Positions 1,127-50,399 of a DNA stretch of 64,000 nt are shown here, piece by piece. The stretch is taken from assembly GCF_040954835.1 (NCBI RefSeq), contig NC_090698.1, positions 6,384,501-6,448,500 on the forward strand. Reading direction: 5' to 3'. The notes beneath the pieces were generated by a model that ran no database searches, was not told where the DNA came from, and saw only the letters and a program-made list of their open reading frames with translations. A program made the position numbers and the translations under genes. The stretch is from Lepisosteus oculatus. Its lineage: Eukaryota > Chordata > Actinopteri > Semionotiformes > Lepisosteidae. Position 1 is the first letter of the stretch. Each line of letters begins with the position of its first letter.

Positions 1127-4510
<3,384 letters not shown>

Positions 4511-7444: not shown

Positions 7445-10400
7445 TCACCACTGGGCGACGTTGTGGGGCAGCGGAGCGTTGGCGTGGTGATGGCAGCGAG
7501 CCTGGCGTGAGCAGGAGGGGTCAGCGTGGAAGGACGGCCAGCGGCCCTGCGGGCGGCGCGGGGGGTCCGGGGCCGAGGGGCTGGATCTCCTCTCGCTCTC
7601 CTCTCTTTCCTCCTCCTCCTCCTCCTCCTCTCCCGTGGGCCTGGGGCAGGAGCAGGGGGCCTGGGGCTGGAGTTTCAGCTCGGCCTGGGCTGGGGGAGCC
7701 GTTGCCTGGGCGGGGGTGGGGCCCGGTAGGCGGGAGGACCGGGGGCCGGGGTGTGTGGGCCAGGGCTCCAGAGCGTGAAGGCTGTGGGAGGACCGCACTG
7801 GGCCCTGGGGCTTCTCCGGCCCCCAGGAAGGGCAGCGGTGGGGGTAAGGGGTCGGGGGCAGGTGTCTTACTTGAGGCTGGCGCTGTGACGCAAGGTCTCC
7901 AGACTCGGGCAGCGGGGTGAAATTGCAGCGCTGCACTGTCGCAGCTGGGGGGCTGCTGGCCTCGTGTTCCTCCTCGTTAGAGAACCCTTCCAGCTTGACC
8001 GCACTGGCACCATCCTGAGCGCCTGGGGTCCCTGGGGCTGTTGGTCCCGGTATTTGCGCCGTCACGCTGGTGCTGCTCCCGGGCTGGGATTTCCTGCCCC
8101 CTGCTGGCGAGACGCTGCCTTGCTTCTTCGCCTGAGCGGTCCCCGCCCGGCCGCCGCCGCTGCTGATGCGAGCTGTGGTGTGCGCCTTTCTCCCTCTCGC
8201 CACCTGCCTGACGGCTCCGATCCGCGTGGGGCAGGGCTGGGGTGGCGGCCTGGGCTGCCGGGGGGTGCCGCCCTCCTCTCGCGAGATGGGGGTGCTGGAA
8301 GTGGGCACTCTGGGGCCAGCGGCCGGTGTGCCCACACTGCAGGGCAAGTGAGAAGTGGACGATTGTGCAGGAGGTTTCACGGCCTTATTGCCCCGGGGGT
8401 TAGTTGTCAGTTTGGTTACGGGGGTGATTTTGACGCTCTGTGCGGGGGCTGTCACGGGCTTGGTGGGTGGGTTGGCTTCTGGGGTGCTTGCGGGGGCAAA
8501 GGTTTCCTTCCTCATGGCCCCGGGGGCTCGGTGGGCAGTTCTGGCGGCAGGAGCTCTGACAGCCTCGGAGTACGACGCGGCCTTCATTGCCCGACGTACA
8601 GCTGCCTGCACCTCAGACACTGGGGGAGGCGGAACCAGCTGTTGCTGCTGGAGATACCGCAGCCTGAAGATGAGCAGACACAGGGGTCTGACAGTGAGCC
8701 AGACAGACACAGGGGTCTGACAGGAACCAGACAGAGACACAGAGGTCTGACATTGAGCCAGACAGACACAGAGGTTTGACACTTAGACAGAGACACAGAG
8801 GTCTGACAGTGAGCCAGACAGACACAGGGGTCTGACAGGAACCAGACAGAGACACAGAGGTCTGACAGTGAGTCAGACAGACACAGGGGTGTGACAGTGA
8901 GCCAGACAGACACAGGGGTCTGACACTGAGCCAGGCAGTCACGAGGGTGTGACAGTGAGCCAGGCAGTCACGAGGGTGTGACAGTGAGCCAGACAGACAC
9001 AGGGGTCTGACAGGAACCAGACAGAGACACAGAGGTCTGACAGTGAGTCAGACAGACACAGGGGTGTGACAGTGAGCCAGACAGACACAGGGGTCTGACA
9101 CTGAGCCAGGCAGTCACGAGGGTGTGACAGTGAGCCAGACAGACACAGGGGTCTGATAGTGAGCCAGACAGACACAGTGGTCTGACAGTGAGTCAGACAG
9201 ACACAGGGGTGTGACACTGAGCCAGACAGACACAGGGGTCTGACAGTGAGCCAGACAGTCACGAGGGTGTGACAGTGAGCCAGACAGAGACACGGAGGTC
9301 TGACAGTGAGCCAGACAGTCACGGGTCTGAGAGTGAGCCAGACAGTCACGAGGGTGTGACAGTGAGCCAGACAGAGACACAGGGGTCTGACACTCACAGA
9401 CACAGGGGTTTGACAGTTAGCCAGAAAGACACAGGGGTCTGACAGGAGCCAGACAGAGACACAGAGGTCTGACAGTGACTCAGACAGACACAGGGGTCTG
9501 ACAGGAACCAGACAGAGACACAGAGGTCTGACATTGAGCCAGACAGACACAGAGGTTTGACACTTAGACAGAGACACAGAGGTCTGACACTTAGACAGAG
9601 GCACAGAGGTCTGACAGTGAGCCAGACAGACACAGAGGTGTGGCACTTAGACAGAGAGACAGGGGTCTGACAGTGAGCCAGACAGACACAGGGGTCTGAC
9701 ACTCAGACAGAGACACAGGGGTCTGACAGGGGCCAGACAGAGACACAGAGGTCTGACAGGAGCCAGACGGAGACACAGAGGTCTGACAGTGAGCCAGACA
9801 GACACAGGGGTCTGACAGGGGCCAGACAGAGACACAGGGGTCTGACAGGGGCAGACAGAGACACAGAGGTCTGATAGGAGCCAGACGGAGACACAGAGGT
9901 CTGACAGTGAGCCAGACAGACACAGGGGTCTGACACTCAGACAGAGACACAGGGGTCTGACAGTGAGCCAGACAGACACAGAGGTTTGACACTTAGACAG
10001 AGACACAGGGGTCTGACAGTGAGCCAGACAGACACAAGGGTCTGACAGGGGCCAGACAGAGACACAGAGGTCTGACAGGAGCCAGACAGAGACACAGAGG
10101 TCTGACAGTGAGCCAGACAGTCACAAGGGTGTGACAGTGAGCCAGACAGAGAGACAGGGATCTGACAGTGAGCCAGACAGAAATGCAAAGGTCTGATACC
10201 CAGACAGAGATAGAGGGGCTGACACTCAAACACAGACACGGGCTTGAAAGAGAGTCAAACACACAGACAGAGGGTCTACGTATGTCAAGGTACAGTATGT
10301 CAAACAGTGATGGAGAGCCTGACAGCGAGAGTGCAACAGGCAGTCACACAAAGACAATCTAAGAGTGACCGAGAGGCAGACAGAAATTGACATAGAAGGA

Positions 10401-11497
10401 AGACAAGGGGTGACACACACAGGCCAGAGAAAGAGAATCCGACAGAAATGCCCTGATGGGCAGACAGACCTGGCATCCAGCTGGGCGCGGGTTTTCTCGG
10501 ACATGACGAAGTTGGGAGGCACTTTCAGTATGGGTATGGAGCTTTTGCTACAGGTACTGCTGCTGTCATTTGTGCTCTTGGGGTTGTTGCTGACACTGCT
10601 CCCACTGCCACTGCTAATACTCCAGCTACTAAAGCTGCTGATACTGCTACTGCTGCTAGTGCTGCTCATACTGCTGCAGCAGGTATTGCTTTCTGGCTGA
10701 GCCCCCATACCACCTTGCTGTGAATGCTGGCACTGAACCCAGGCGTCTGGCTCTGAGCCAGTAGCACCCTCCAGTTGCTGGGCTGGGGGAGCAGAGCGTG
10801 CAGAAGGGGGGGGAGTGGAAATTTGGGGTGCTTTGATGTCCCATGCCCCTCTCGGACAAACCCCCCTATCCTTAATCTCCTGCTTTGGCTGTGGAGACTT
10901 GTCTCCCCCTAGTGTCAGGGGTGTGAGCGACACGTCTTTGCTGGGAGAGGGGTGGAGAAGGGGGACAGGCAGGGCTCTAGATTTCTGCTGTCTCAAGGTA
11001 AATTTGAGGGGCAGCAGGGAGGGCTGAGGCTTGGGGGAACCCGGGGGGCCACGGGCGATCTGGGGCACATGGCTACGTGTGTTCACGCCCTCCCCTGGGG
11101 GCGGGGGCGCTGTAGGGAAGAGGGCTGGGAGCTTGTGCTGGCGCTGGGGGCTGTGTCTGGAGTAGATGGGGGGCTGGGGAGGACACAGGGAGGCGCCCAT
11201 GCCTGGGGAAGGTTTCGGGGTGCCTTTGATAGGGGTGTTTGGTGAGAGGGGGAAGGGGCTCAGTTGGCGTGTCCCCGGGAGCCTCCTCTGGGGTCTGCGG
11301 AGAGCCCACCCCGGCTCTTCTCCCGGCTGTGTCTCCCCTCCTGTCGCTTCGTCTGTCTCTCTCTCTCCCCCTGCGGCTCGGCCTCGCTCTCTCCCTCTCT
11401 CCCTCTCTCCGGCCCAGCCTCTCTCGCGCTCGCTCTCTCTGTCTCCCTCTGCTGGTGGCGGCTGTTCCTGCTGCAGTTCGGACTGACCATTGCCCAT
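7445..11497 (-). CDS. ggn: gametogenetin-like protein (two coding exons)
   Basis: Mammalian gametogenetin is a proline-rich germ-cell protein reported to bind FANCL and other testis proteins. Coding exons run 11497-10470 and 8663-7445 on the minus strand. The donor is CCAG|GTCTGT, the acceptor TCATCTTCAG|GC, and the split Arg codon keeps the frame, giving 748 residues (human about 650). The start MGNGQSEL parallels the recalled human MGNVQSEP. Gly2 and Ser6 fit an N-myristoylation site. Pro/Ser/Gln-rich disorder fills most of the chain, with a Ser-run near residues 275-320, SYSEAVRAP after the exon junction (compare human SYAEVLKQ) and a Glu-run near 690. The C-terminus is Cys/His-rich (CSRQARCHHHANAPLPHNV). 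Position between psmd8 and spred3, and opposite strand, match human GGN. Orthology is inferred from synteny plus the N-terminus; the body is low-complexity and would align poorly. Confidence 0.8.
8672..10260. repeat. 29-bp minisatellite filling the ggn intron
   Basis: About 50 units with the words GGTCTGACAGTGAGCCAGAC and AGACACAGGG, with variants in which the unit loses a few bases. On the ggn (minus) strand it is pyrimidine-rich. It runs to within about 10 bp of the exon 2 acceptor at 8664, so the polypyrimidine tract of that acceptor looks like part of the first unit. It accounts for most of the 1.8-kb intron. Confidence 0.93.
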
Positions 11498-11859
11498 CCT
11501 CCCTCACTCTGGTCTCCTGCCAGGAAGACCAGCGGCACGAGGTGACTTTTATTACATTGGCTTTTGACTGAAGCCTCCGTAATGGAGGTTCAATCATAAT
11601 ATCCCCTTTACTTTTTGTCCTCTGCATACTCTCAGTGAAGCCCGGCGGTGTCTGTGCTTCTCTCGCTACGCTGTGCTAGATTATGATTGTACTATTATTT
11701 GTTTAGATTGATCTTTTTGATTACTGTGTTGTGATACCATGGTGCAGCTATCATTAATCACAGAAGGTAATGATAAGCATTTGTCAGAGGTGGACAGGGT
11801 CACACAACAATTACTAAAGTAAATCATAGTAAGATACAGTCATAGTCCCGTGTTTTGTA

Positions 11860-14092: not shown

Positions 14093-16950
14093 AGCCTGTG
14101 ATTATAACTTTGCATTTATTATTACATATTATCAAATTATTTAATAATTAACTTCTTGTTTATAACATTCCAGTTGTTTCTGCACTATTTTTTTTAACAC
14201 TGTAGAAACTTGAGTTGCCTCGGAAATGGTCATGATCTAAACACGTTTGAATAACCGTCATAAACGGCAACTCCTATTCCCAACCAAATTGGTACACAAT
14301 TCCCTAAGTTCTCAAGGCAGGAAACTGCTGATAATCATGGTACCTCGACTACTACAGCTCCTTGTCACGGGCTCTGCTATCGGGTAATGATGAGACTGTA
14401 TTGTACTTAACTGCATCAGCCCCCAGCGTAAAGTGAACCCGTCGTTACAATGAACGACTGTGTCTCAGCGTTAGACTACAGGCTAATTCTACTCTATGAG
14501 CGCGTCTTTCAGCATTCCCGCAGGTAGCGTATAATGTCCGGCTCATTGTCGGGGGGTACTTCAGTTGTCTCTGCGGCTGGACATGTGAGATTGCTGTCCA
14601 TTTCCACGGCCCCGACCCCGACCAGCTACAGCGCCTCCTGCCGGTTACCTCAAGCTCTGGCCGCCGGTCACTGGAAGGCGGGGGTCCTGTCCGGGCAGGT
14701 GGGGGGCTGATTGAGGCCGGAGGTGGAGTGGATCACGAGTAAAAGTGAGGCTGTTTTCTCTCCCTCCGTGGCGCGGAGACACATGAAAAGTTTGGAAAAC
14801 AAACGCGTCCGTTATCGCTCGGGGAAGCGTTTCGAATGAAAACAGAGGCGCCCCGGGACCCCACGCGCGCCGCCCGCAGTGACGGGTCTGTCAGTACCGA
14901 CCCCCCCCCCTCCCGGTGTTTTGAAACGGGGTCGTCGTCCGTGACAGATATTTATTTTTAGCGGATTACTTGTTTTCCGGGCACTTTCGTGGCCGAAGTT
15001 ATCCCTAAATCTCGCCGGCCACCACTCCAGTGAGAGCCGTAGTGAGAGCCGAGAGCGACACTACCGCGGTGCCGCACGCCTGCAGTTCGACTCCCGTATC
15101 GCTCTCTCCTCAGAGACCGGCCGAGCACGTCGGCTCATCCCTACAGTTCAACAAGACACGACAGACACCTTCCTGGGCTGGGATTCCGACCTTCTGTCCG
15201 CGACAGCCTCCCTCCCAGGAAACAACACAGAGTCCCGTGGTGCCCTATTACATGGAATAGTGTGGTGGTGTTTATTACATGGAATCTAATAATTACCCCC
15301 CCCCCAAAGACGTTTTCTTAATCGTTTTCATTTTGTTTGCGCATCCGCTTTGTGCTTTACAGTATACATCCATTTCTGTCGTTTGATTGGACGGCGAAAC
15401 GTGTCTTGACTGCAGTTGAAAGCGTTTTGAGATGATTTATTTGGAAACGCGCTACATGCGTGCGTTCTTCTCCTCCTCCTCCCTCCCTCCCTCCCTCCTC
15501 TCGGTAGACCTGCGCCACCGCTCGGACACCCCAGGGCGGGACCACCGCTGCCTCGCGGCTCCACCCGGCTTCTCCCACGAGCTCGGCGTCCAGCCTGGGT
15601 TTGTCAACAGCACGCGGGGGGACTGTGCGGGCGACCCCCCCCCCCCCACGCGCTCCAGCGCGAACGCGACCGCAGAAGCCCCTCCGTGCCGTAGAGTCGC
15701 CCTTTCAGGGCTCAGGGGCGAAAAAGACCGGTTTTCTTTTCCCAGTGGTTCGTATCCCTGTGGCTCATTGGCTGCTGGGATTCCCGCATGTTATACGCGA
15801 CAGCCTTGAACTGAGTGGCCGCCAAGCCCGGCAATCCAGTCCCCCTTGCGGTCGGTGGGCTCCCACCCAGGGAGGTCCCGGTGTTGGCGGGCAGAGGGGG
15901 TCCTCAGCGCTGGCCCATGCAGGCTGCGTCTCCGCGTGTCAGCGCGCCGCGGGCGTGGGGGAGCTGTCCGTGGTGCTGAAAGCCCTCTCCTCTCGGACCC
16001 CCGCCCATTAACACAGATGTTTGCTTGGGCTGAGAGGACTCCCATCCACATTCTGCCGGAAAGGAAGTGGAACAAAAACTGTAGGGGGCCTTTCAGCACC
16101 GCGGACAGCGGACAGCTCCCACGCAGCGCAGCGCGGACGAACAGGGAGTGTGTCCGAGACGGGCTTTCTCGCGGACCCCTCGGACGCAGAGGTGTGAGTT
16201 TAACCTTTCATACGTCACCTGCTCGGGCCTTCAGCCTCGCCCCCAGAGGGTCAGCAGTTTGCATGTCCACACCCGGACACAGCCCAGTTCCCTGCGGAAA
16301 GTTTCCTTCGTCCTCTGCCGGGTGAGCAGTCTCGGCCAGAACCTCTGTTTTGTGTGTGTGTGAGTGTGTGTGGTGTGTGTGATTGTGTGTATGATTGAGC
16401 GTATGTCAATGTGTGTATTAGTGCACGAATGTGCGTGTGGTGTGAGTTTGTGCATGAGTGAGTCTGTGAGGGTGTGCGATTGTGTGTGTATGTCTGCGGT
16501 GTGTGGATGTGTGTGGTGTGAGTGTGTGAGTATGTGTACGTGCTTGCCTGTCGCTGTGTTTCTGAAGGTGTGTTGCTTTGTGCGCTGTTATTAAATCTTT
16601 AATAGTATCCGGCAATCGATTAGTCAGTGTGTGTGAGCAGTGTGTGGGAGTACGGGTGTACTGTCAGTCAGTAGGTCAGTCAGTGTGTGTGTCTTAATGC
16701 ACAGAGTGTGTCGGTGGGCTGATCTGCCTTTTTACGTAGTCTGTAACAGTGGCGGTGTCTTGCAGTCAATTAGTGTGTGTGTGTGTTTTTTGGGGTGTCT
16801 TCACGCAGCTTGTACGCGGTCAGCCCGTCAGTCACCCATCCGGCCCCTGAGCTCTGTCGCCCCTTCTGTCCGTCTGTCCGAGTCCGGTGTTCGGGAAACA
16901 CAGTTTGAAGGGAAACCGGCAGGCGCAGGCAGGGAAGAGGTGAAGGAGGG
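14093..16950 (+). other. CpG-rich upstream region of spred3
   Basis: AT-rich to about 14500, then increasingly CpG-rich to 16200, then a TG-rich tract (about 16340-16560). It contains no recognisable coding exon. It lies between the divergent ggn and spred3 genes and probably includes promoter sequence for spred3. Open frames such as those at 15432-16325 lack any domain. Confidence 0.5.
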
Positions 16951-16959
16951 AGGGAGTGA

Positions 16960-17294
16960 TTAGGGAGAGAGAGAGAGCGAGGCAGAGAGAGAGAGAGAGG
17001 GAGAGAGACGGAGGGAGGGAGGGAGGATGCTACCGCGGCGAGCGGAAAATGGCTGCTGCGCGCCGGAGCCCCTTCCTGATACACGGCGAGAGGACATGAA
17101 AGATGGGAGAAAGGGAAGAAGATAAAGACATGAGCGGCTGAGAGGAGAGCGAGAAAGAGAGAGCGAAAGAGAGCGTGAGAGAGAGGGTGCGTGTGTGCTC
17201 GCTCGTGAGGGAGAGAGAGAGAGCGCGAGGGGGGAAAGGAACCATACATCAGACCGGGGGGCAGCGAGCTCGAGGCGGCGGGCGACACCGAGCA
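16960..17294 (+). promoter_or_regulatory. GAGA-rich 5' leader / promoter of spred3
   Basis: A long purine-rich stretch of GAGAGA, GGAGGGAGGG and GCGAGG words immediately precedes the ATG at 17295 and lies inside a CpG-rich block. It is probably 5' UTR and core promoter. The exact transcription start cannot be set from sequence. Confidence 0.55.
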
Positions 17295-19374
17295 ATGGAG
17301 CGCGAGTGAGTCTCGAGGTTTTTTTTTCCCCTTTTTAAAAAAAATAAAAATAAAATCAGATGAGTGAGACGGTCGTCTTTCGCCAGGCAATATTTTGCGT
17401 TATTTCCAACAGTTTCACTGACACACACACACACTCTCTCTCTCTCTCACTCACACACACACACATATACGCGCACACACAAACAGACACACGTATACAT
17501 GTTCAGAAAATCAGCCCGGCTCAGTCATAGATGAAAATCATTCACCCACCCGGCGTCCACAGAAACAGAGCGTTCAGATGTAGGTTCAGCCGTCATGTAG
17601 AGATGGCAACTGCAATATTATTGACGTTTTGTTAAATAGCAGCTACGCATCAGTGCCGTATGATGAGACAGGTACAAACCTTTACGGTAGTCTGGATTTA
17701 GCGGTGGGAAACCGCTGGAAATTGAGACGAACAGAGAGAGACAGCTCTCTCACCACCTTCCCTAGTGCTGTCGGGGCATGTTCGCACGGTGTTGTCGAAG
17801 CGGCTAGAATATGGCGATTTTGTTGTGTGTTTGTTTTTTTTTTAAATCATTGTATTTGTTTCTTGCCCACTCTCGGGTTCACAAGCGCCCTTCCGCCGCG
17901 GTGACGGGGGAGCTCGCCGGCGGGTGTGGGTGATAGTGAGGGGAGGAGGAGGCAGGCGCCGTCGATGGGATTTTTTTGTTTTTCTCAACGAGTCCCTCGG
18001 TTTCATTATGATTTTTTAAAGCCAAACTTTATGAATGGAATTTGATCTTTTTTTTTTCTCCCTGCCGCTCTCTCTCCCACCTCCTCCCCCTCTCCCAACA
18101 CCTCTCTCTCTCTCTCTTCCCTCCCTCCGACTCTCTCTCTCTCTCCTCTCCTGCTCCCCGCTCCTCAAATACCACACAACCCCCCCCCCCCCCCCCAACA
18201 CACACACACGCACACACGCACACATACATGGACGCGTCTCGGCCGAATATGCAGGGAAACGCCGAGGGGACGAGTTTCTGAATCGCTCTGCTCCGCGTCG
18301 CGTTTTCATTCATAAAATAGCGGGGCCGCCTGGGTGTGAGTCCGTGCCGTGCGTGCGCGCGAGGCGCGAGGCGCGAGGCGCGAGCGGCCGGGCGGGCGGG
18401 CAGGGAAGCGCTCCGCGGCGTCTCGGGCCGCCCGGGCGGATAACAGGAATATCCGTGACGGAGACTGAGACGCCTCTGAGGACCGCACCCGCCCTGCCCC
18501 AGGGCTGTTCATCCCGCCGTGGGGTGTGCTCGGTGTGGCGCTCCGGCCCGGGCCGGGGCCGGTTCGTGTGGTCACAGGGCTCGGGCTCGGGCTGGGTTTG
18601 TACTGGCTCTGAGCGCAGTCCCGTCTCTGCCTCGGGCTCGTCTGAGCTCCCGATGGGCCGCGCATCTTCTCTCCTTCCGCGCCGGGTCAGGCTTTCCATG
18701 ACAATGTGGATTTTTAATTTCAAACAATTGCATTCTCAAGTACTGTCAATATCTGTCGTCTGACTAAGGACAGAAACCTGACTGCGCGATATAAGTCGAG
18801 GGGAGGGTCACCTATGGGCGCGTTTCACAGCCGCTGCGAGATATCTGGCCGGTCGGGTGTTAGGACGGCTCGATTATTAAAGTTGGAATAACGGTTGGTC
18901 CCGATCACGTGACCCCCCATTCACAAAAAAAAACCCCATCCACCCTCGCGCAGCCCTCGCTGCACTAGCGATGCGCGAGCGAGACTCGCAGGCTCGAGCT
19001 GCCCCTCCGTGAGAAGCGCAGCACGAGTCGCACCGCGCTGTAATCGTCTGAGAAACACACCGGTAGAATAAATGCATGAGCCTCCTCTGTCTGGGTTGTG
19101 CTCGTCTGTGTGGGGCACTGCGCTTAAAGGGCTGCTTACGTCATATTCCAGAGGGTTAAGATTCCTAAAGCTTGAGAAGCTAAGACGGTGTCAATACTTG
19201 TGTCGACGTGTTCTGATCATCTTTTATTAGTAATTCCACATTTAAAAACAGTCTCACTTCAGGCACTTGTCGTCTTCTGCGCAGTCTGGTACAGTGTCGG
19301 TGTGTGTTTGCGGCTGGGGTGAACTGTGTTTTCATCGTCACACCTGCACAGTAAGGACAATGTAATTAAGAATC

Positions 19375-25400: not shown

Positions 25401-28400
25401 AAGTGTCTGTTTCTCCAATGGGCTTCTGCAGCTGTGTGTATAGAGAGTGTATAGGATGTGGGACAGCACACAGCCCTGAGGCAACCCAGTGGAGAACAAA
25501 GGTGCTCTGATGTAAGACAATTTGCCCTCACTCTTCATAATCTGTTGGACAAAGTATAAGATCAACCTACACTATTCAAGTAGACCATTGAATAGTGTGG
25601 TTTAGTGGTCTCAAAGGCTGATTTATTTCTATAAATAAAAGCCTTGTATGTGTCTTGGGACCTCCTAGATGTGAACATAAGGGTTTCAGTAATGTGAGGG
25701 TAGCATGACATGAGGTAGACTCCTTGTGTCATGATAACTGGAAATATAATATTCCCTGTTTTGATTACTAGCTGCAGTAAATGATCTGTGGATCTTGTTA
25801 CTTTTTTTGAAGAATCCCAGTTTATAAATTTCAACAAAATGCCTGGGCCACTCGTTCCAGATTCCCATAATCCTTTGTCTGGGCTGTATCATATTGTAAC
25901 CCTACCCTCCAGAGATCACTGGTCCAGTCTGTGTCCTATTGTACCCCTACAGTCCAGAGATCACTGGTCCAGTCTGTGTCATATTGTAACCCTACCCTCC
26001 AGAGATCACTGGTCCAGTCTGTGTCATATTGTAGCCCTACTGTCCAGAGATTACTGGTCCAGTCTGTGTCATATTGTAGCCCTGCATACAGTCCAGAGAT
26101 CACTGGTCCAGTGTATGAGTAGTCTATGAGTAGTCATGTGCTACTGGCTTTGGGTGGGCTCCAGTTAGCCAGGGTTTCCTTGGGTCTTTCCAGGGTGCCT
26201 GTGATTGTGTAGCGTTGTCCACTGGAGACTTCTTGCTCCTCCCTGCAATGTTAATCTCATCTAAGCCTCTGTGGAGGTGGCAGCAAGTCCCAGGGCAGAG
26301 GAGAGTGTCTTCTTTTCTTTGTTTTTATCTCAGTACACCAACGTAAATTGTTGTAAAGTGCAGTGTTACCAAGCAAGTAGCCTGGTCTTGTCAGAACCCA
26401 CAGTGTATTAACCTGTCTTTCTCTTGCAGTGCAGTGTGTACAGTGTGTATTAACCTGTCTTTCTGTTGCAGTGCAGTGTGTACAGTGTGTATTAACCTGT
26501 CTTTCTCTTTCAGTGCAATGTGTACAGTGTGTATTAACCTGTCTTTCTCTTGCAGTGCAGTGTGTACAGTGTGTATTAACCTGTCTTTCTCTTGCAGTGC
26601 AGTGTGTACAGTGTATGATCCTGTGTCTATCTTATAATGTATGCCATGTGTCTTTCTTTCCATATACAGTATATATTTTTTAATGGTTTTATCCAATGTA
26701 ACTCCCATCTGCGGTCATGTTCACTGCAGGGTATATATTACCAGAATCATTCAGGTAGCCCTTGTCTCTCTCTGTCCCAGTGTGGTGCGGGTTCGAGCAG
26801 TGGTGATGACCCGCGATGATTCCAGTGGGGGCTGGGTCCCCCTGGGGGGCGGTGGCCTGAGCCACGTGATCATCTGCAAGGGGCGGAGCCTGGAGGACAG
26901 GGGGCGGAGAGATTACATCATCCGGGGGGAGCGGCTCAGGGACCGGGCGGTGAGTGTGCGTGTGTCTCTGTGGGCGTGGCGCTGGGTCGAGCACATCTGG
27001 AGCCCCACACGGGGCTCGGGCCCCCGCTGGGCAGGAGGGACCTGAAGGAACTGGCAGCAGGGCTCGTTCCAGAGGAGACTGATGTGGTTGTGGGGCAGTG
27101 CTGGGGGTGTGTCCAGAGCTAGGTCCGCTGTGTGTGACATCAGCGCTCGGAGAAGCAATGAGCTCTTTCTCACTGTACATTCGAGCGCCGCGTCCGTCAG
27201 GGTGTGACTGATATCTGGACACCAGGATCAGGATGTCATTCCTGGTCCACTTGCTCACAGAGAGCGCTGCGTGTGCGGTACTTGATTGTGTTGTGTTCTA
27301 CATAGATGTGAGGGTGTTGTATTGATCATGATGTGTAGTATATTGATGTGAGGGTGTTGTATTGATTGTGTTGTGTTGTATATTGATGTGAGGGTGTTGT
27401 ATTGATCATGATGTGTAGTATATTGATGTGAGGGTGTTGTATTGATCATGATGTTTAGAATATTGATGTGAAGGTGTTGTATTGATCGTGTTGTGTAGTA
27501 TATTGATGTGAGGGTGTTGTATTGATTGTGTTGTGTTGTATATTGATGTGAGGGTGTTGTATTGATCATGATATAAAGTATATTGATGTGAAGGTGTTGT
27601 ATTGATCGTGTTGTTTAGTATATTGATATGAGGGTGTTGTATTGATAGTGTTGTGTTGTATATTGATGTGAGGGTGTTGTATTGATCATGATGTGTAGTA
27701 TATTGATGTGAGGGTGTTGTATTGATTGTGTTGTGTTGTATATTGATGTGAGGGTGTTGTATTGATCATAATATAAAGTATATTGATGTGAAGGTGTTGT
27801 ATTGATCGTGTTGTTTATTGATGTGAGGGTGTTGTATTGATCATGATGTGTAGTATATTGATATGAGGGTGTTGTATTGATCGTGTTGTGTAGTATATTG
27901 ATGTGAAGGTGTTGTATTGATCATGATGTGTAGTATATTGATGTGAAGGTGTTGTATTGACCGTGTTGTTTAGTATATTGATATGAGGGTGTTGTATTGA
28001 TCGTGTTGTGTAGTATATTGATGTGAGGGTGTTGTATTGATCATGATGTGTAGTATATTGATATGAGGGTGTTGTATTGATTGTGTTGTGTTGTATATTG
28101 ATGTGAGGGTGTTGTATTGATCATGATGTGTAGTATATTGATATGAGGGTGTTGTATTGATTGTGTTGTGTTGTATATTGATGTGAGGGTGTTGTATTGA
28201 TCATAATATAAAGTATATTGATGTGAAGGTGTTGTATTGATCGTGTTGTTTATTGATGTGAGGGTGTTGTATTGATCATGATGTGTAGTATATTGATATG
28301 AGGGTGTTGTATTGATCGTGTTGTGTAGTATATTGATGTGAAGGTGTTGTATTGATCATGATGTGTAGTATATTGATGTGAAGGTGTTGTATTGACCGTG

Positions 28401-31400
28401 TTGTTTAGTATATTGATATGAGGGTGTTGTATTGATCGTGTTGTGTAGTATATTGATGTGAGGGTGTTGTATTGATCATGATGTGTAGTATATTGATATG
28501 AGGGTGTTGTATTGATTGTGTTGTGTTGTATATTGATGTGAGGGTGTTGTATTGATCATGATGTGTAGTATATTGATATGAGGGTGTTGTATTGATTGTG
28601 TTGTGTTGTATATTGATGTGAGGGTGTTGTATTGATCATAATATAAAGTATATTGATGTGAAGGTGTTGTATTGATCGTGTTGTTTATTGATGTGAGGGT
28701 GTTGTATTGATCATGATGTGTAGTATATTGATATGAGGGTGTTGTATTGATCGTGTTGTGTAGTATATTGATGTGAAGGTGTTGTATTGATCATGATGTG
28801 TAGTATATTGATGTGAAGGTGTTGTATTGACCGTGTTGTTTAGTATATTGATATGAGGGTGTTGTATTGATCGTGTTGTGTAGTATATTGATGTGAGGGT
28901 GTTGTATTGATCATGATGTGTAGTATATTGATATGAGGGTGTTGTATTGATTGTGTTGTGTTGTATATTGATGTGAGGGTGTTGTATTGATCATGATGTG
29001 TAGTATATTGATATGAGGGTGTTGTATTGATCGTGTTGTGTAGTATATTGATGTGAGGGTGTTGTATTGATCATGATGTATAGTATATTGATGTGAGGGT
29101 GTTGTATTGATTGTGTTGTGTAGTATATTGATGTGAGGGTGTTGTATTGATCGTGTTGTGTAGTATATTGATGTGAGGGTGTTGTATTGATCATGATGTG
29201 TAGTATATTGATATGAGGGTGTTGTATTGATCGTGTTGTGTAGTATATTGATGTGAGGGTGTTGTATTGATCATGATGTATAGTATATTGATGTGAGGGT
29301 GTTGTATTGATTGTGTTGTGTAGTATATTGATGTGAGGGTGTTGTATTGATCATGATGTGTAGTATATTGATATGAGGGTGTTGTATTGATCGTGTTGTG
29401 TAGTATATTGATGTGAGGGTGTTGTATTGATTGTGTTGTGTAGTATATTGATGTGAGGGTGTTGTATTGATCATGATATATAGTATATTGATGTGAAGGT
29501 GTTGTATTGATTATGATGTATAGTATATTGATGTGAGGGTGTTGTATTGATTGTGTTGTGTTGTATATTGATGTGAGGGTGTTGTATTGATCGTGTTGTG
29601 TTGTATATTGATATGAGGGTGCTGTATTGATCGTGTTGTGTTGTATATTGATGTGAGGGCGTTATATTGATTATGATGTTTAGTATATTGATGTGAGGTG
29701 TTGTATTGATCATGATGTGAGGGTGTGGATTCATGGTGTCTTGGATATTAAAATCAGGTGCTTCACCCTCCCCTGCTGTCTCCCTCAGCCCGTGCTGGAG
29801 TGTGCTGTGCAGAGAGGGCTGGTCTACAACAAGGTGAACCCCATCTTCCACCACTGGCGTGTCCAGGACAAGAAGTTTGGCCTGACCTTCCAGAGCCCTG
29901 CTGATGCAGTCTCCTTCGAGCGAGGGCTCCACAGCGCCATCGACAGGCTGGACAGAGGTGCTGAACCAAGAGGGGGGAGGGCTCAGAGGGAGAGAGCGGA
30001 GAGAGAGAGGGGTTCAGAGGGAGTGAAGGAGACCAACAGATACAATGAGAGAGGGGGAAGGTAACATGGAGGCAGAAGAGAAGCAGAGGCAAGTCATGAA
30101 ACAGACATGTACAGAAAGGGGTCCATAGACAGATATGCAAAAGACCCCCATCCTTAAGGTCCTATAGGTGCCTTAAATCCATTTTTACTAATAGAAGTTA
30201 GCAACTGGCAAGACTCAACAGCGACATCCCCAGGATGAAAAGGGTACTGCAGGTAGGGGGGACACGCAAAAGAGAGAAAAAGCAAGCAAGAGTTTATTTC
30301 ACACAGCATCCGTTCTATTGTATCTTTGTTTATGGTGTCTGTATTTACATCTGGATGAAACCAGGCTGGGTGACGCAGTGGTGAGCACTGCTGCCTTGCA
30401 GTGCTGAGGCCCTGGGTTTGATTCCTGGGGGTACTGCCTGTGTGGAGTCTGTATGTTCTCCCCGTGTTCATGTGGGGTTCCTCTGGGAGCACCGTTTTCC
30501 TTCCACAGTCCAGTAGGTTAATTGGCTTCTGGGGGAACCGGCTCTGGTGTGAGTGTGTGCGTGTCTGTGATGGCCTGGCGTCCTCCCCAGGGTGTATCCT
30601 GCCATGCATTCATTGGTTGCTGGGATAGGCTCCAGCCCCCCTGTGACCTCATATTGCATGGATGAAAGAATGAAACCAGGCCTGCAATTGTGAGCTGTGT
30701 TACTGTTTGTTTGTTTGTTTTTTGGACATTGGAACAGTGACCTGTAATAACTCTACTGCCTGGGGTCGCTGACCTCTGTTTACCCCAGCACGTGGGGTAA
30801 CTGATCTCTCTTTTCCCCATAGTCTGGGGTGACATGTGCTTAGAAAAGGGAATGGCAGCTCCTTCTCACTGTGTTTCTCTGTTGTCTCTCCTTGTCCTTG
30901 TCTTTCTCCCTTTCTCTCTCAGGCTCGGATTCTCCTTCCTCCTCCACACCAGAAGAGGGCGACACTGAAGACGATGGCCTGGCCGTGAGTCGCTCTGTGT
31001 CACTCTCTCCCTCGGTGCTCTGTGAATGCGTATCTCTGTCTCTTTTTTCTCTGAGATTGTGTGGATTGAACACGGTACATCAGACCTCCCCTGTCCCGCC
31101 TCCCCATCGCCCCATCCTCGCTCTCTTCTCCCCTGCTCCCCTCCCTCTCTCGTCCCCTCCCTCTCTCGTCCCCTGTGTGTTTCATTTCTTCTCCTCCTTC
31201 CCTCTCTCTCGCTCCCTCGCTCAGTCCCAGGACAGCGAGTCGTCCTCCAGCAGCCGAAAGGAGATGCTGCCCAGGCCTGCCACCATAGTGACCAGCCAGT
31301 CCTCCGCCACCTGCTTTGTGCGCCCCCCTGCCACTGAGGATTATGGGTACGGAACCGGACACACCGTTGCCACGCCAACCCCTGCACAGGTAAAGATGCC

Positions 31401-33763
31401 TATGCCCCTGTTACTATGGACACCACCTATTGACTGGCTAGAGAGCAAATACTTGACATTGATTACAGAAGAGGACGCTCTGATTTTTGCCTTTATTTCC
31501 CATTGTTTTATTCCTGGTGGAGCAGGGTGCACCAACAGTAATTGCGCCCTTCTTATTGCTACACCCTACTGGAAACTAGGAAAGAGCTGGGAATAAGACG
31601 ATATGTGCTGCACAACTTTGAGTTCAAAGTGTGTCTTTGAGTTACTCCTACTCTTAACACCCACTCCCTGTGAAGTCCTGCGGTTTATGTTCTCCAAGTT
31701 AACAAATGACACATCCAGTCTACTGACTGCTATGCCCGTGTTATCAATGCTTCAATAAATCATAATAATAATTCCCAATGATCACACCTAGAACTTTAGC
31801 GGGTGCTGTGCTCAATTTCTCTGCTGCTGATGGTCCGCTTCAGATAGAAACATTGTAGACACTTGCATCCACATAAACTGTAAACTGTACAGTGAACACC
31901 TCAGTAGCTCAGTGTGATCTTGATGAGTATGTTCTTGCCTAGCTGTAGGAATAGCAGCCCCTGCACTTCTGTAAGGCTTGAGTGTCTGCTGCTAGGGCAA
32001 TGAATATGAGAGAGATATACCAAAGGACGTCCTAGGTGCAAGACTTACTGTATATATGTAAGAAAGCAGAAATATGCAAGATAAGTATCTTTCTACCCAA
32101 GCCTACAGACTCTTATTGGAGCCCCTGTGTGTGGACACACCTGGTGTCCAGACTCTTATTGGAGCCCCTGTGTGTGGACACGCCTGGTGTCCAGACTCTT
32201 ATTGGAGCCCCTGTGTGTGGACACGCCTGGTGTCCAGACTCTTATTGGAGCCCTTTGTGTGGACACGCCGGGTGTCCAGTCTCTTATTGGAGCCCCTGTG
32301 TGTGGACACGCCTGGTGTCCAGACTCTTATTGGAGCCCTGTGTGTGGACACGCCTGGTGTCCAGACTCTTATTGGAGCCCCTGTGTGTGGACACGCCGGG
32401 TGCAGATCTGCATCTAGCAGCACCAACTGTGCTCACACTTTCTTTATGCTACACCTGAATTCAAACTAGAAATACATCTGGCCATCAGCTCTGATTTCAC
32501 CAGCAGCCTAAGTGTGCAATGCTACCTGGTACAAAAGAGGAGCCACGCTCTCCGACATTCTCCTCTGTCTCCTTCTTGCCCTCTACCCTCTCTCTCCGTG
32601 TTCCTCAGATCCACACCCGCCCGCTGCAGCACCAGCCTGCGCCCGTGACGGCTGTCATTAACCCCCCTGCGCCTCCGCCTCCCGCTCAGCCTCCGCCCCC
32701 TCCCCTGCCCCCGCCCCAGGCCCCGCCCCCGGCCCCGCCCCTCTCCCCCCTCAGCCCTCTCTCCCCGACTCTCTCGCTGCTGGAGGAGAAGGACCTGCAG
32801 AGCCTGGACCCCTGCAAGGACCTGTGGGGCTCGCGCGGGTACGAGGACTACCGCCGGGCCGGGACCGCCAGGACTCTGGGCGTGCCTGCGGGCGGCGGCG
32901 GCGGCGTTGGCGGGAGCGGCGCGCCGGACAAGGCGGAGCTGTGCGTGGTGCGTTTCGAGAAGGAGCTGGCGGGCGGCCCGGTGGGCAGCGAGGTGGCCGT
33001 GACCCTGGACAGCAAGCCCCCGCTCCGGCTCGCCACGCCCTCGCCCACCTGCGGACCGGGGCCCAACGCCGTGGGCGCCACGCCCGCCTCGGGCCCCGCC
33101 GGCCCCTGCGCCCACGAGCCCGGGAAAGGATCGCCCTCCCCCTGCTGCATCCACACCTCGCTGGCCACCCCGCGCGCGCGGACTCGGAAACGGGGCGGCG
33201 GCGGCGGCGGCGACTGCGGGCTGGGCCTGGGGCTGGGCCTGGCGGGCGGCCTGTCCCCCACGCTGGACGCCGCCGTCTCCTGCGCCGACGAGGACCACGC
33301 CGGGCCCTGCCCCCCGCCGGGCGGCTCCTCCTCCTCCTCCTCCTCCCGCTGCGTCTACTGCCGCTCCGTCTTCAGCGCCGCCGACAACGGCCGGGGCCGC
33401 TGCCGGGACGCCCCGGACCCGGCGCTGCGCTGCCTGCGCCAGTGGACCTGCGTGTGGTGCGCGGAGAGCCTGCTGTACCACTGCATGTCGGACTCGGAGG
33501 GCGAGTTCTGGGAGCCCTGCTCCTGCGAGGAGGACGCCGGGGGGGGCGGGGGCGGCGGCGAGGGCGGCGGCGGCGGCGGCGGCGGGGCCGGCGGCGGCTC
33601 GGGGGGGTGCCGCCCCCACGCCCTGTGCTGTGCCCGCTGGCTGGCCCTGCTGGCCCTGTCGCTGGTCGTGCCCTGTATGTGCTGCTACCTGCCCCTGCGG
33701 GCCTGCCTGCGCTGCGGAGAGCACTGTGGCTGCTGTGGGGGCAGGCACAAAGCCGTGCGGTGA
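17295..33763 (+). CDS. spred3: Sprouty-related EVH1 domain-containing protein 3
   Basis: SPRED proteins inhibit Ras-Raf-ERK signalling at the membrane. Six coding exons join in frame: 17295-17305, 26781-26949, 29789-29957, 30923-30984, 31225-31389 and 32609-33763, for 576 residues. Exon 1 encodes only MER plus two bases, ending at a GA|GTGAGT donor. The EVH1 domain (about 5-117) shows [25 protein letters not shown] and [12 protein letters not shown]. An acidic Ser-rich linker follows, then a Pro-rich tract (about 205-245). The C-terminal Cys-rich Sprouty domain (about 440-570) shows [28 protein letters not shown] and [12 protein letters not shown] cannot place a KIT-binding domain with confidence. 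Glycine tracts inside the linker and the Sprouty domain make it longer than human SPRED3 (about 410). The position next to ggn and psmd8 supports SPRED3 over SPRED1 or SPRED2. Confidence 0.93.
17306..19370 (+). other. 5' part of spred3 intron 1, CpG-rich
   Basis: Contains CT/CA microsatellites (about 17420-17480 and 18060-18220, with a poly-C run near 18180) and a CpG-dense stretch at about 18220-19060. It is probably a continuation of the spred3 CpG island and may hold intronic regulatory sequence. No coding exon is recognised. Confidence 0.5.
19377..19408. repeat. (AAT)n microsatellite
   Basis: About ten AAT/ATA triplets, immediately before the 42-bp array. Confidence 0.95.
19445..21290. 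repeat. 42-bp minisatellite, about 44 units, spred3 intron 1
   Basis: The unit contains GTAGCTCCTATTGTAACAGG and ACTGTTCTACTGTACTGGG. It is open in two forward frames and one reverse frame, giving frames of 500-650 codons. These are artefacts of a stop-free 42-bp unit. Variation is limited to a few positions, such as CTCC/CCCC, ATTG/ACTG and AACAGG/AGCAGA. Confidence 0.96.
21545..21830. mobile_element. tRNA-derived SINE pieces in opposite orientations
   Basis: At about 21570-21735 the head and body lie on the minus strand: GGGATTTGAACCTGCAACC is the reverse of a B-box, and GGTCAGCCATTTATACAGC is body. At 21735-21830 the 3' tail of the same family (GAGAGCAAGCTGGGGTATGC, CCAATAAAGTGATCTGATC) lies on the plus strand. 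A regular minus-strand copy of the whole family is at 57232-57517, so this one is rearranged or is two fragments. Confidence 0.75.
22330..23610. repeat. 42-bp minisatellite with a 588-bp higher-order repeat
   Basis: About 30 units with words TGGTAAAAGCACAGTAAAG and GGTGAAGCACAGTGAGG. Variant markers recur exactly 588 bp (14 units) apart: ACAGGAAAGTG at about 22423 and 23011, and GTTGTTGTAAAAG at about 22578 and 23166. A 14-unit block has therefore been duplicated. The long minus-strand open frames (over 500 codons) are artefacts. Confidence 0.94.
23611..24010. repeat. 39-bp minisatellite, about 10 units
   Basis: Units carry GTAGTGAGGCAGTGAAATCA and GGTGAAACACAGTGAATT. It follows the 42-bp array directly and may derive from it. 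It lies in spred3 intron 1. Confidence 0.9.
24015..24785 (+). other. spred3 intron 1 sequence without recognised element
   Basis: Ordinary AT-moderate intronic sequence between a minisatellite and a LINE fragment. No exon, domain or repeat family is recognised. Confidence 0.5.
24790..25560 (-). mobile_element. decayed LINE reverse-transcriptase fragment (L2/CR1-like)
   Basis: Read on the minus strand, one piece (25531-25253) resembles the end of a reverse transcriptase: [19 protein letters not shown] stands where GxPQGCVLSPLLFTLY is expected, and KLAEDS stands for KFADDT. The next (25256-24798) resembles the ORF2 C-terminus, with [16 protein letters not shown] and LFSLLPSGRR-like [13 protein letters not shown]. 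The order of the two pieces is that of an intact LINE. Frame changes and substitutions show it is an old inactive copy, 5' truncated, in spred3 intron 1. Confidence 0.75.
25889..26115 (+). repeat. 45-bp minisatellite family A, copy 1 (spred3 intron 1)
   Basis: About five units with TCCAGAGATCACTGGTCCAG and TCTGTGTCATATTGTAACCC. The same family makes large arrays in the kelch gene (47199-48230) and sars2 (53262-54118). Confidence 0.93.
26395..26620 (+). repeat. 42-bp tandem repeat carrying acceptor-like sites
   Basis: Five units, each with TGTCTTTCTCTTGCAG (a strong-looking 3' splice site; one unit reads TTTCAG). The candidate AGs are near 26428, 26470, 26512, 26554 and 26596, ahead of the true spred3 exon 2 acceptor at 26780. 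Confidence 0.9.
27300..29725. repeat. 40-bp minisatellite with a 435-bp higher-order repeat, spred3 intron 2
   Basis: About 60 AT/GT-rich units with GTGAGGGTGTTGTATTGATC and TGTAGTATATTGAT. Marker variants recur at 435-bp spacing: TCATAATATAAAG at about 27766, 28201 and 28636, and ACCGTGTTG at about 27960, 28395 and 28830. A block of about eleven units, one shortened, is thus present three times. The array ends about 65 bp before exon 3. Confidence 0.95.
30355..30681 (+). mobile_element. tRNA-derived SINE with 12-bp target-site duplication
   Basis: The body (30367-30669) starts with a tRNA-like head (GACGCAGTGGTGAGCACTGC, then a B-box-like GGGTTTGATTCC). It continues with the widespread fish core (GTATGTTCTCCCCGTG, GATGGCCTGGCGTCC, GGGATAGGCTCCAGCC). 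Flanks are perfect 12-bp duplications, ATGAAACCAGGC, at 30355-30366 and 30670-30681. It sits in spred3 intron 3. Confidence 0.85.
32104..32405. repeat. 43-bp minisatellite, about 7 units, spred3 intron 5
   Basis: The unit contains AGACTCTTATTGGAGCCCC and TGTGTGGACACGCC. Some units lack a base or two. It is nearly homogeneous. Confidence 0.93.
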
Positions 33764-45680: not shown

Positions 45681-48600
45681 CTACTCGTCCTGGGTCCGCT
45701 CCGCGCCGTGGGTGCCCCTGAGCCGCGCCAGGATGTGCTTCTTGGGGAACTTGAGCGTGGTGCAGCCGAACTGGCTGACGCCGCCGGTGTCGCCGGGCAG
45801 CTTCTCGCGCCTCTGCACCCAGCTGCGCCAGCCGGGCTTCCAGCAGTACACGCTGTCGTAGAAGCGCGAGCCGTTCTCCCCGCCCAGCACGTAGATGCGC
45901 CGCTTCCAGCGCGCCACGCCCCCCGCGGCGATGCGCCGGGGCAGGCCGGGGAAGACCACGGGGCTGGGGGCGCGGTCGCTGCCCCCCGCGCCCCCGCCGC
46001 CGCCCGTGGCCGACTCGCGGCTGGAGCCCCGGCCCTCGCGGAAGAAGAGCACGCGGCCCGTGGCGTCCAGCGGCTCCAGCTGGGTGAAGTTCCCGTCCAG
46101 GAATTTGGTGGCGTCGCGGCAGTAGCCCCCGACGGCGCACACCCCGCCCCGCACCGCCACCCCGCCCGCGCAGCAGGTGGCGCCGGAGTCCAGGCCGACG
46201 TGGCTCCAGTGGCCCGTGGCCGTGTGGTAGATCAGCACGCCGGAGTGGATGGCGGCCCGGTTCTGCTCCAGCGTGGCGCCGCCCATCAGGTAGAGGCGGC
46301 CGCGCAGGGCGGCGCAGGCGAAGGAGCGCAGGGGCAGGGGCAGCCGCGGGCCGGGGCGCCAGGCCAGCGCCCGCAGGTCGAAGCACTCGGCCGAGTCCAG
46401 CAGGGCGCCGCGGTTGCAGCCGCCCAGGGCGTAGAGGGTGTCGCCGCAGCCCAGCAGCCCCAGCATGGCGCGGGGCGCGGCCATGGGGGGGCGCTCCAGC
46501 CAGCGGTCGCGCACCACGTCGTACTCGTGCAGCGCGGCCGACACCTGCCCGCTGCGCAGCACGCCGCCGGCCACGAAGAGGCGGCCCTCCACCGCCGTGC
46601 AGCCCGGGCACAGCAGCGAGCCCAGCGCCGCCAGCTGCTCCCACTTGCCCGTGCGCGGGTCGAAGCAGTCCACCGTGAACTCACCCTCGCGCAGGGAGCC
46701 GTCCTCGCGCGGCTTCAGGTCGATGCAGACGATCTTCTTCTCGAACATGCCCTCCCGCGGCCGCAGGGGCCCCCCGGGGGCCGCGCCCCCCAGCTCCTCC
46801 TCCAGCCGCCAGCTCTCCTCGGCCGACAGCAGGCCGGGCCGCAGGTGGCGCAGCAGGGCGGGCATGTGCAGGTAGCGCTGGCGGGGCTGGTGCTCGGCCC
46901 AGCGGCGGGCGGCGTCGTACACCTCCAGCTCCGACTCCACGCCCAGCCGGTCGGACGACAGCAGGCTGCCCAGGGTGCCCGGGTCCAGCAGCAGGAAGTC
47001 CCGCTGGCGCGAGACCCGCGGGAAGTGCTGGGCCACCAGCCGCAGGGAGGCGCGCAGCAGCAGGGGGTCGTGGTGCGAGCGGGCCAGGGAGTACATCCCC
47101 AGGCAGTTCTCCACGCTCAAGTGCTCGAATAGGAACCTGCGCAGGGCGACACAGGGACAGGCACCATCGTCACTGCCGGGCAAACAAATGAACTGATCTC
47201 ACACAGACTGGACCAGTGATCTCTGGACTGTAGGGTTACAATATGACACAGACTGGACCAGTGATCTCTGGACTGTAGGGTTACAATATGACACAGACTG
47301 GACCAGTGATCTCTGGACTGTAGGGTTACAATAGGACACAGACTGGACCAGTGATCTCTGGACTGTAGGGTTACAATATGACACAGACTGGACCAGTGAT
47401 CTCTGGACTGTAGGGTTACAATAGGACATAGACTGGACCAGTGATCTCTGGACTGTAGGGCTACAATAGGACACAGATTGGACCAGTGATCTCTGGACTG
47501 TAGGGCTACAATATGACACAGACTGGATCAGTGATCTCTGGACTGTAGGGTTACAATAGGACACAGACTGGACCAGTGATCCCTGGACTGTAGGGTTACA
47601 ATATGACACAGACTGGACCAGTGATCTCTGGACTGTAGGGTTACAATATGACACAGACTGGACCAGTGATCTCTGGACTGTAGGGCTACAATAGGACACA
47701 GACTGGACCAGTGATCTCTGGACTGTAGGGCTACAATAGGACACAGACTGGACCAGTGATCTCTGGACTGTAGGGCTACAATAGGACACAGACTGGACCA
47801 GTGATCTCTGGACTGTAGGGTTACAGTATGACACAGACTGGACCAGTGATCTCTGGACTGTAGGGCTACAGTATGACACAGACTGGACCAGTGATCTCTG
47901 GACTGTAGGGCTACAATAGGACACAGACTGGACCAGTGATCTCTGGACTGTAGGGCTACAATATGACACAGACTGGACCAGTGTTCTCTGGACTGTAGGG
48001 CTACAACAGGACACAGACTGGACCAGTGATGTCTGGACTGTAGGGTTACAATATGACACAGACTGGACCAGTGATCTCTGGACTGTAGGGTTACAATATG
48101 ACACAGACTGGACCAGTGATGTCTGGACTGTAGGGTTACAATATGACACAGACTGGACCAGTGATCTCTGGACTGTAGGGTTACAATATGACACAGACTG
48201 GACCAGTGATCTCTGGACTATAGGATTACACTTTTTGTTTTCAAACTAATAAGTGTGTTTTACTCTTTGAAAAAGTGAAATTACTATCATGCTAGATGTT
48301 AATTATCCCTAACACTAAGATTGCTTCAACTTTTCCCTCTGTGTGCGCGGGACTGTGCCACTGCCCAACGACTGTCGCCATAGTCACCTGGAACACAGGT
48401 CCTGCAGGGGCAGGACTTGAAGCCGATTGGCCGCCACAAACAGATCCTCAGCCGTCTCCAGGTTCAGTCCCGCCTCCCCCGTGTAGACGAACTGAATCAC
48501 AGTCTCCATGACCTCGGGGGTCACCTCCTCCAGCCGGATCTCCGTGAGGCGGGACTCCACCAGCGGGCTGGTGAACATGGCGCGGAAGTAGGGGCTGACG

Positions 48601-50399
48601 GCGGCCAGGAGAGCCCTGGGACACAGGAGCAGAGAGATGAACACCCACAAAGAGGCAGAGAAATGCCCTTCCGCAGCAGCTGTAATCAATCATGACTAAT
48701 TAACGACCATAACAAAGACGCACAAGGGCCAGTGGACAGGAGAGCATGTGGGGCTGTTGCTGCTGGTCTTCCTCACACTTGGGAGGAGACGTGTGGTCTT
48801 AGTATTAGTAGGGCTTAAGGGCAGTAGGATCAAGAGCAGTGATGCAGTCATACAGTATCAGCAGCAGGGCTGTAGGATCAAGAGCAGTGATGCAGTCATA
48901 CAGTATCAGCAGCAGGACAGTAGGATCAAGAGCAGTGATGCAGTCATACAGTATCAGCAGCAGGACAGTAGGATCAAGAGCAGTGATGCAGTCATACAGT
49001 ATCAGCAGCAGGGCTGTAGGATCAAGAGCAGTGATGCAGTCATACAGTATCAGCAGGAGGGCAGTAGGATCAAGAGCAGTGATGCAGTCATACAGTATCA
49101 GCAGGAGGGCAGTAGGATCAAGAGCAGTGATGCAGTCATACAGTATCAGCAGCAGGACTGTAGGATCAAGAGCACTGATGCAGTCATACAGTATCAGCAG
49201 CAGGACTGTAGGATCAAGAGCAGTGATGCCGTCATACAGTATCAGCAGCAGGGCTGTAGGATCAAGAGCACTGATGCAGTCATACAGTATCAGCAGTAGC
49301 CGTACCTGTGACAGGTAAACTTCCTCCCCTCTACTATCAGAGTCACGTCACAGAGCTGCCGAGCATCCAGGAGCTGCTTGAGACCTGACAGAGAAATTTA
49401 CATTTTAAAACTTCACAGGATTTTCGACAATTAAAATGCTAAATAGTCATAGTACCCGAATGACCTAAATAACCGAAGAACTGAGCAACCTCCTTTAAAA
49501 AAAAACACACGTCCCATATTATACATAATACTCTATACACACATTTTAATCCCCTTCTGTGCACTTTAACCCGCTTCAATATACTAGGGCAATAAAGCCA
49601 ACTTCCACCAGTGGGTGTCGCTTGTCTCTCTTCAAAAGAAATTAAAAATAGAAAAAAAACCTTCCCTTTTATTTTCCGAAATAAAAGCAGTGGCCCAGTG
49701 TAGCCACCAGGGACACTGTGCTACAGAGGCTGAGGATAAGGTGCAGATTACTCAGTCCCTGCAGATCTAGTGACAGTTCCTAACAGCAGGGGTGTCCTGG
49801 CTCACTTCTATTCTGCCTTGTGCAATCTGGGTTTCCCAAAACTCCCCCTTGACTCTCTCGTTTCTCCCGGATCTGCTGAGGAGTGGGAGCGCTGGAGCAT
49901 GATGATGTCAGGCTTGAGACCCGAGACCCGAGACCCGAGACCACCTGGGTGTAGGATTTGGGAGATCTTCTGTGATGCAATGAGCGATACAAGAGCAAGA
50001 CCACTCTGACCTACTGGTGTCCAGCCTGCTGGCTGCTGCAGTAACTGGAAATCCCAGTCACAATCGATGAAGGACACAGCCCAGAAATCCTGTAACTGCT
50101 GGGTTCCGATACTTGTGGCTCTGGTGCAAGGTTCCACCCGGGACTTTTTTATTGGTCAGGGTACTGGGAGGCTTCTTCATTGTGTGCGCCGGCCCCTCAG
50201 TTTGTCCAGGTGTGCAACGTGCGCCCTGTATCAGTGTACACGGAGAGCGATCGCCCTGGGTCAGTTGGGTACCTTGGGTGACGTACTCTCCCAGAGGGGT
50301 GGTGGTGTCGTCAGGGAAGTCCTCCTCTTCAGAGTCGCTGTCGGAGAGCGGCTCTCCTGGGCCACTGTCCCCATCCTGCCAGGGCTGCGGCCGCCACAT
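45681..50399 (-). CDS. BTB-BACK-Kelch (KLHL-type) protein
   Basis: Proteins of this type usually serve as substrate adaptors of Cullin-3 ubiquitin ligases. Four coding exons on the minus strand join in phase: 50399-50273, 49384-49306, 48615-48388 and 47136-45681, giving 629 residues. After an acidic Ser/Asp leader (SDSDSEEEDFPDD, about 19-31) comes a BTB domain (about 45-145) with CDVTLIVEGRKFTCHRALLA, SPYFRAMF and FVYTGEAGL. The BACK domain (about 145-250) has ENCLGMYSLA. The kelch repeats (about 270-600) show GG doublets in LFVAGG, LYALGG, LYLMGG and IYVLGGENGS. The C-terminus reads FGCTTLKFPKKHIL. The ATG was chosen as the first in the exon after a TTTCAG acceptor at 50417; a 5' non-coding exon is expected. 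I cannot assign a KLHL number. It is head-to-head with sars2. The introns hold two large minisatellites. Confidence 0.92.
47199..48230 (-). repeat. 45-bp minisatellite family A, copy 2 (kelch gene intron 3)
   Basis: About 23 units, read on the minus strand as TCCAGAGATCACTGGTCCAG and TGTGTCATATTGTAACCC. It fills most of the intron between the exons ending at 48388 and starting at 47136, stopping about 60 bp before the acceptor. The unit is stop-free on the minus strand (15 residues), so a 331-codon open frame results. It is not a gene. Confidence 0.95.
48820..49300. repeat. 45-bp minisatellite abutting a splice donor (kelch gene intron 2)
   Basis: About ten units with GATCAAGAGCAGTGATGCAG and TCATACAGTATCAGCAG, unrelated in sequence to family A. 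The array reaches within about six bases of the donor of the exon ending at 49306. Confidence 0.93.

Follow-up and report, generated by a model that had tools for sequence, protein, structure and literature searches.

In the spotted gar Lepisosteus oculatus, a non-teleost ray-finned fish, the minus-strand stretch at positions 7445..11497 of the analysed window (64,000 nucleotides of genomic DNA) is probably the positional orthologue of the gametogenetin gene (GGN; here candidate ggn), in a highly diverged form. This identity, proposed in an earlier note on the same DNA, is favoured by the locus, the strand and the N-terminal heptapeptide of the predicted protein, and is backed neither by similarity beyond residue 7, in the part compared, nor by a match to the Pfam GGN family (PF15685).

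The candidate ggn holds as a predicted gene model of two coding exons on the minus strand, with predicted splicing between them. Coding exon 1 (10470..11497) encodes MGNGQSE...KTRAQLDA in 342 full codons and ends with the first two bases of a further, split Arg codon at the donor CAG/GTCTGT (slashes mark exon boundaries), where the intron starts at 10469. The predicted intron (8664..10469) is in phase 2 and has 1,806 bases. Coding exon 2 (7445..8663) starts at 8663 behind the acceptor CTCATCTTCAG/GCTG (TCTTCAG/GCTG), which completes the Arg codon, and adds 405 codons, LRYLQQQQL...PLPHNVAQW, and the stop. The two exons join in a single frame of 748 codons with the stop at 7445. Exon 1 was delimited by its open frame, the in-frame stop upstream and the donor, and exon 2 by its acceptor, the in-frame join and codon statistics. 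The ATG at 11497 is preceded by an in-frame TGA, with six bases between them, and carries A at -3 and G at +4, a favourable start context. Splice sites were ranked with a simple, rough weight matrix built on consensus frequencies. Among the 58 GTs at 11497-10250 the donor came second, as did the acceptor among the 81 AGs at 10470-8400. The donor is imperfect, with C at +3 and T at +4. Most of the intron (~1.5 kb) is taken up by a 29-bp tandem repeat of 52 copies (8675-10181). This array stops 11 bases short of the acceptor, and many of its units are themselves acceptor-like on the minus strand (CTGTCAG).

It is possible, if rather doubtful, that ggn is present here and that the model is wrong in part, with other 5' or 3' exons, additional isoforms or different ends; such a revision is compatible with the main reading. 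An acceptor-like site at 11518 (CTTCCTGGCAG/GAGA on the minus strand) suggests an intron in the 5' untranslated region, with 11498..11517 as a possible untranslated part of exon 1. Past the stop, the nearest ATTAAA lies at 728 bases and the nearest AATAAA at 1601 bases, and PMC3579931 cites three predicted isoforms of GGN in mouse and human. The frame, complete from ATG to stop and bounded upstream by an in-frame stop, argues against such a revision.

The candidate ggn, on the minus strand, is flanked by psmd8 and a spred gene, both on the plus strand, and is arranged tail-to-tail with psmd8. Five coding exons of psmd8 (1127..4510) were recognised in the window, at 1127-1229, 2016-2181, 2466-2566, 3329-3440 and 4373-4510, and their joined translation matched Pfam CSN8_PSD8_EIF3K at 5.7e-40. 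The spred gene (26638..33760) has WH1 exons inside 26638-27042 and 29684-30061 and a Sprouty exon inside 32495-33760, with Pfam matches at 1.2e-11 (WH1) and 7.5e-28 (Sprouty); it was named spred3 because of its neighbours. Human GGN is likewise on the strand opposite to PSMD8 and SPRED3. The human order PSMD8, GGN, SPRED3 is given in a published table (PMC7282656), with PSMD8 extending to 38,875,464, GGN at 38,873,992-38,879,668 and SPRED3 starting at 38,879,840. On these coordinates, human GGN overlaps the end of PSMD8 by ~1.5 kb and lies 172 bases from SPRED3 (PMC7282656).

A CpG-rich block (14251..19250) lies between the candidate ggn and the spred exons. Its observed/expected CpG ratio is 0.71-1.15 in 17 of 19 overlapping 500-bp segments (the other 2 fall below the filter), and the median for the window is 0.39. 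This block is plausibly the promoter region of the candidate ggn, of the spred gene, or of both. The earlier note had described an intron-split, proline-rich gene at 7445..11497, placed between psmd8 and spred3 on the expected strand. Its coordinates, strand, start and splice signals were recovered unchanged, the gene being probably coding, and the Pfam domains of psmd8 and spred on either side uphold the position, with the spred3 name taken from the neighbourhood.

Two further tandem arrays are found in psmd8. A 37-bp array of ~4.8 copies (2161-2338) begins within the final 21 bases of a psmd8 exon and copies both the exon end and the adjoining 5' splice site (GGAGCAG/gtaggg), giving several decoy donors. 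The following psmd8 intron holds a 56-bp array of 12 copies (2684-3354) that copies the 3' splice site and about the first 26 bases of the next exon (ttacag/GGATGAGATC...), which yields about ten decoy acceptors ahead of the real psmd8 exon. Elsewhere in the window, a kelch-like gene was found on the minus strand at 45684-48689 (BTB 7.6e-18, BACK 4.8e-21, Kelch_1 2.3e-29). A plus-strand frame at 59313-59573, a short piece with no Pfam match at E 0.01, reads as seryl-tRNA-synthetase-like (sars2). An Rfam scan of the window at gathering scores returned no matches.

The predicted protein starts with the heptapeptide MGNGQSE (11477..11497, minus strand), and human GGN starts with MGNVQSE. The two are identical at 6 of 7 residues, so that the closeness claimed in the earlier note was retained. 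Human residues 1-157 matched Pfam GGN at 2.9e-86 from the start of the profile (positions 1-158), and residues 1-40 alone matched at 7.9e-16. Two more human stretches extended the match to profile position 225, and a third, tentative segment past that position gave no Pfam GGN match. Such matches confirm these human stretches as GGN, not each single letter of them. A literature search for MGNVQSE, MGNIQSE and MGNGQSE found none of these strings. The pattern for N-myristoylation is an MG start with a small residue at position 6, and the candidate protein, with G2, N3 and S6, has a myristoylation-type start. This fit does not yet make the heptapeptide an ancient lipid anchor, as the earlier note had supposed, and myristoylation of the GGN start was unmentioned among the matches listed in a separate literature search.

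Beyond the heptapeptide, the Pfam search gave no family for the full 748-residue protein, and GGN was absent for four pieces of it (cut-off 27 bits); the candidate gar gene is not a member of Pfam GGN. One piece matched Atrophin-1 at E 0.64, far under the cut-off of that family, and this match was discarded. Aligned locally with ~220 residues of human GGN, exon 1 reached a score that was equalled by 321 of 1000 windowed shuffles. When the first ten residues of each sequence were removed, 348 of 1000 shuffles reached the score, and for exon 2 against the ~220 residues the count was 665 of 1000; these comparisons covered the N-terminal third of human GGN. In the same test, the counts for four control frames from the window were 177, 174, 285 and 146 of 300. 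With whole-sequence shuffles and human residues 1-157, the score was reached in 26 of 500 cases for exon 1, or 24 of 500 once the first ten residues were removed, counts that we attribute to local composition, which such shuffles do not keep; for the full protein it was reached in 95 of 500. Likeness to GGN past residue 7 was not borne out in the part compared, as the alignment was no better than windowed shuffles and Pfam GGN was unmatched.

When the gar's own genome was searched with the PF15685 profile, the candidate locus was absent from the result; six candidates were scored and one place was listed, on another contig. This place (contig C26, L009; E 0.010, 23.6 bits) is below the cut-off and, after inspection of its frames, was taken as a chance short match. 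The Pfam GGN name can also land on unrelated proteins, for example in Toxoplasma, where a "putative gametogenetin domain" is mentioned for one protein (PMC10857790). With exon 1 DNA as query, at least 113 matches were obtained in the 1.2-Gb own genome, and those other than the gene itself were confined to two simple-sequence regions of exon 1. A 78-residue junction piece gave at least 3 matches, namely the two exons of this gene and one weak match (E 0.56). The latter, on contig C30 (L012), contains an internal stop and was rejected as chance. No second copy was found in the own genome with these two queries, exon 1 DNA and the junction piece.

Two gene families were also searched for in the same genome. 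A search with Hox13 at a threshold of E 1e-12, in which 150 of 167 candidates were scored, returned at least 17 matches spread over four contigs, with one Hox13-like match of 85-97% identity on each contig. The four contigs were read as four Hox clusters, and thus as showing no teleost-type duplication. Three neurophysin genes were found, with vasotocin (CYIQNCPRG), isotocin (CYISNCPIG) and CFISNCPLG. The CFISNCPLG, isotocin and vasotocin genes lie within ~140 kb on contig C3 (L026 2858-2890, L025 6375-6407, L024 8849-8881). Vasotocin, isotocin and the novel peptide CFISNCPLG are described for the spotted gar in PMC4432659, and the third peptide is printed as CFISNCPIG in a table of PMC9606234. 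Both results fit a non-teleost ray-finned fish, most likely a gar or near relative, and uphold the fish host of the earlier note.

The absence of similarity past residue 7, within the ~220 human residues compared, and the unmatched Pfam GGN profile would also be expected if the gene were a lineage-specific proline-rich gene unrelated to GGN, whose MGNGQSE resembles the human start through shared selection for N-myristoylation. An MGNxQS start can partly arise through convergence on this modification, which speaks against the ggn reading. We nevertheless consider an unrelated gene unlikely, since Asn3, Gln5 and Glu7 are dispensable for myristoylation and the coincidence would have to fall in the PSMD8-SPRED3 interval itself. 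For this 22-kb interval, the expected number of starts that share at least 5 of the 6 residues behind Met is ~0.001, a figure that leaves convergence out, and none of 200 simulated intervals contained one. BLASTP of the heptapeptide alone gave E 0.64.

The coding potential of the two exons was evaluated by frame length and codon statistics. Among 300 Markov simulations, the stop-to-stop frame of exon 1 (425 codons) was equalled 0 times at order 1, once at order 2 and 0 times at order 3. The frame of exon 2 (445 codons) was equalled in 8, 17 and 25 of 300 at these orders, so that its length by itself is marginal, and 258 codons are open on the opposite strand. In synonymous codon usage, modelled on 1,233 codons from neighbouring genes, the proposed frame was the top of six in both exons, with scores per codon of -0.226 for exon 1 (next best -0.284) and -0.070 for exon 2 (next best -0.129). 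Since the scores are negative in every frame, i.e., below the base-composition model, they rank the frames and do not by themselves prove coding. Bases were associated with codon position in exon 1 (p=0.04) and exon 2 (p=0.004), compared to p>0.3 in all seven control stretches of the window. We lean towards reading the codon statistics of both exons as those of coding sequence. That there is no gene at all, just two GC-rich low-complexity open frames with chance splice-like signals, would agree with the length of exon 2, its open opposite strand, the weak donor and the negative codon-usage scores, but is very improbable given the rarity of the exon 1 frame, the top-ranked frame and position-base association in both exons, lacking in the controls, and a helix-prone stretch that runs on across the join.

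The candidate protein consists of 16.2% Pro and 12% Ser, and strongly hydrophobic residues average 15% per 40-residue window; a protein of this composition is probably disordered for the most part. Hydrophobicity peaks in 40-residue windows that begin at residues 319-323. This part of the protein includes the 5' half of a putative junction module (ILKVPPNFVMSEKTRAQLDA; 10470..10531, minus strand). The best helix-propensity windows fall within the 3' half (LRYLQQQQLVPPPPVSEVQAAVRRAMKAASYSEAVRAP; 8549..8663, minus strand) and across the join, the top two covering residues 363-380 (beside the join) and 335-352 (across it). With low helical moments (0.15 and 0.09), these two windows are not clearly amphipathic. 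From these features we infer that the splice would join the halves of a short ordered module. Searched against PDB sequences, the junction module gave three weak, unrelated matches, with a best E of 0.088. The last 60 residues of the protein contain 2 Cys and 5 His, in the tail that the earlier note proposed as a possible conserved binding module.

If the gene is a diverged ggn, its product may act as follows. Gly2 of the MG start would be N-myristoylated and would anchor the protein at a membrane. Its chain would be a mostly disordered Pro/Ser-rich scaffold, on which the hydrophobic, helix-prone module spanning the splice junction (residues ~320-380) and the Cys/His-bearing tail could dock partners. 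This docking would resemble that of mammalian GGN1, and fish partners, germ-cell expression and myristoylation are presumed by analogy. The mammalian GGN1 partners named in PMC3579931 and PMC6156456 are FANCL, FANCD2, BRCC36, GGNBP1, GGNBP2, OAZ3 and CRISP2.

On balance, we slightly favour the view that GGN was already in place before ray-finned and lobe-finned vertebrates parted and that the myristoylation-type start is its only strictly kept element. These two lineages diverged more than 400 million years ago, so the family would be older than this if the gar gene is GGN, and the fish/mammal pair would reveal the N-terminal heptapeptide as the kept element. In that case, a gene that the mouse embryo cannot do without would encode a scaffold tethered to a membrane, the remaining sequence of which has been almost wholly rewritten. 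Loss of mouse Ggn causes embryo death before implantation, and heterozygous spermatocytes carry more unrepaired DNA breaks, as stated in PMC3579931. Among the literature matches listed, mostly non-subscription papers, none described a GGN gene from fishes, amphibians, reptiles or birds; automatic annotation may exist. In the non-mammal literature that was checked, "gametogenetin" referred to GGNBP2 (trout, mosquito, copepod and annelid), apart from the Toxoplasma domain named above.

Compared with known systems, the gar gene resembles GGN in its neighbours PSMD8 and SPRED3, its MGNxQSE start, its richness in proline and its compact coding region. The mouse Ggn coding region fits within 2.6 kb, according to PMC3579931, whereas that of the gar candidate, including the intron, spans 4.05 kb. 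The gar protein has 748 residues compared to the 668 positions of the Pfam GGN profile. It differs from GGN in lacking both a match to this profile and, in the part compared, alignable similarity after residue 7. The spacing also differs, with ~15 kb between the candidate start and the first spred WH1 exon in the gar and 172 bases between GGN and SPRED3 in human. N-myristoylated disordered scaffold proteins form a generic class, and the gar protein shares with them the MG start, Ser 6, a long Pro/Ser-rich chain and few hydrophobic stretches. In contrast to such generic scaffolds, the locus and the heptapeptide of the gar gene favour GGN over other proteins of this kind.
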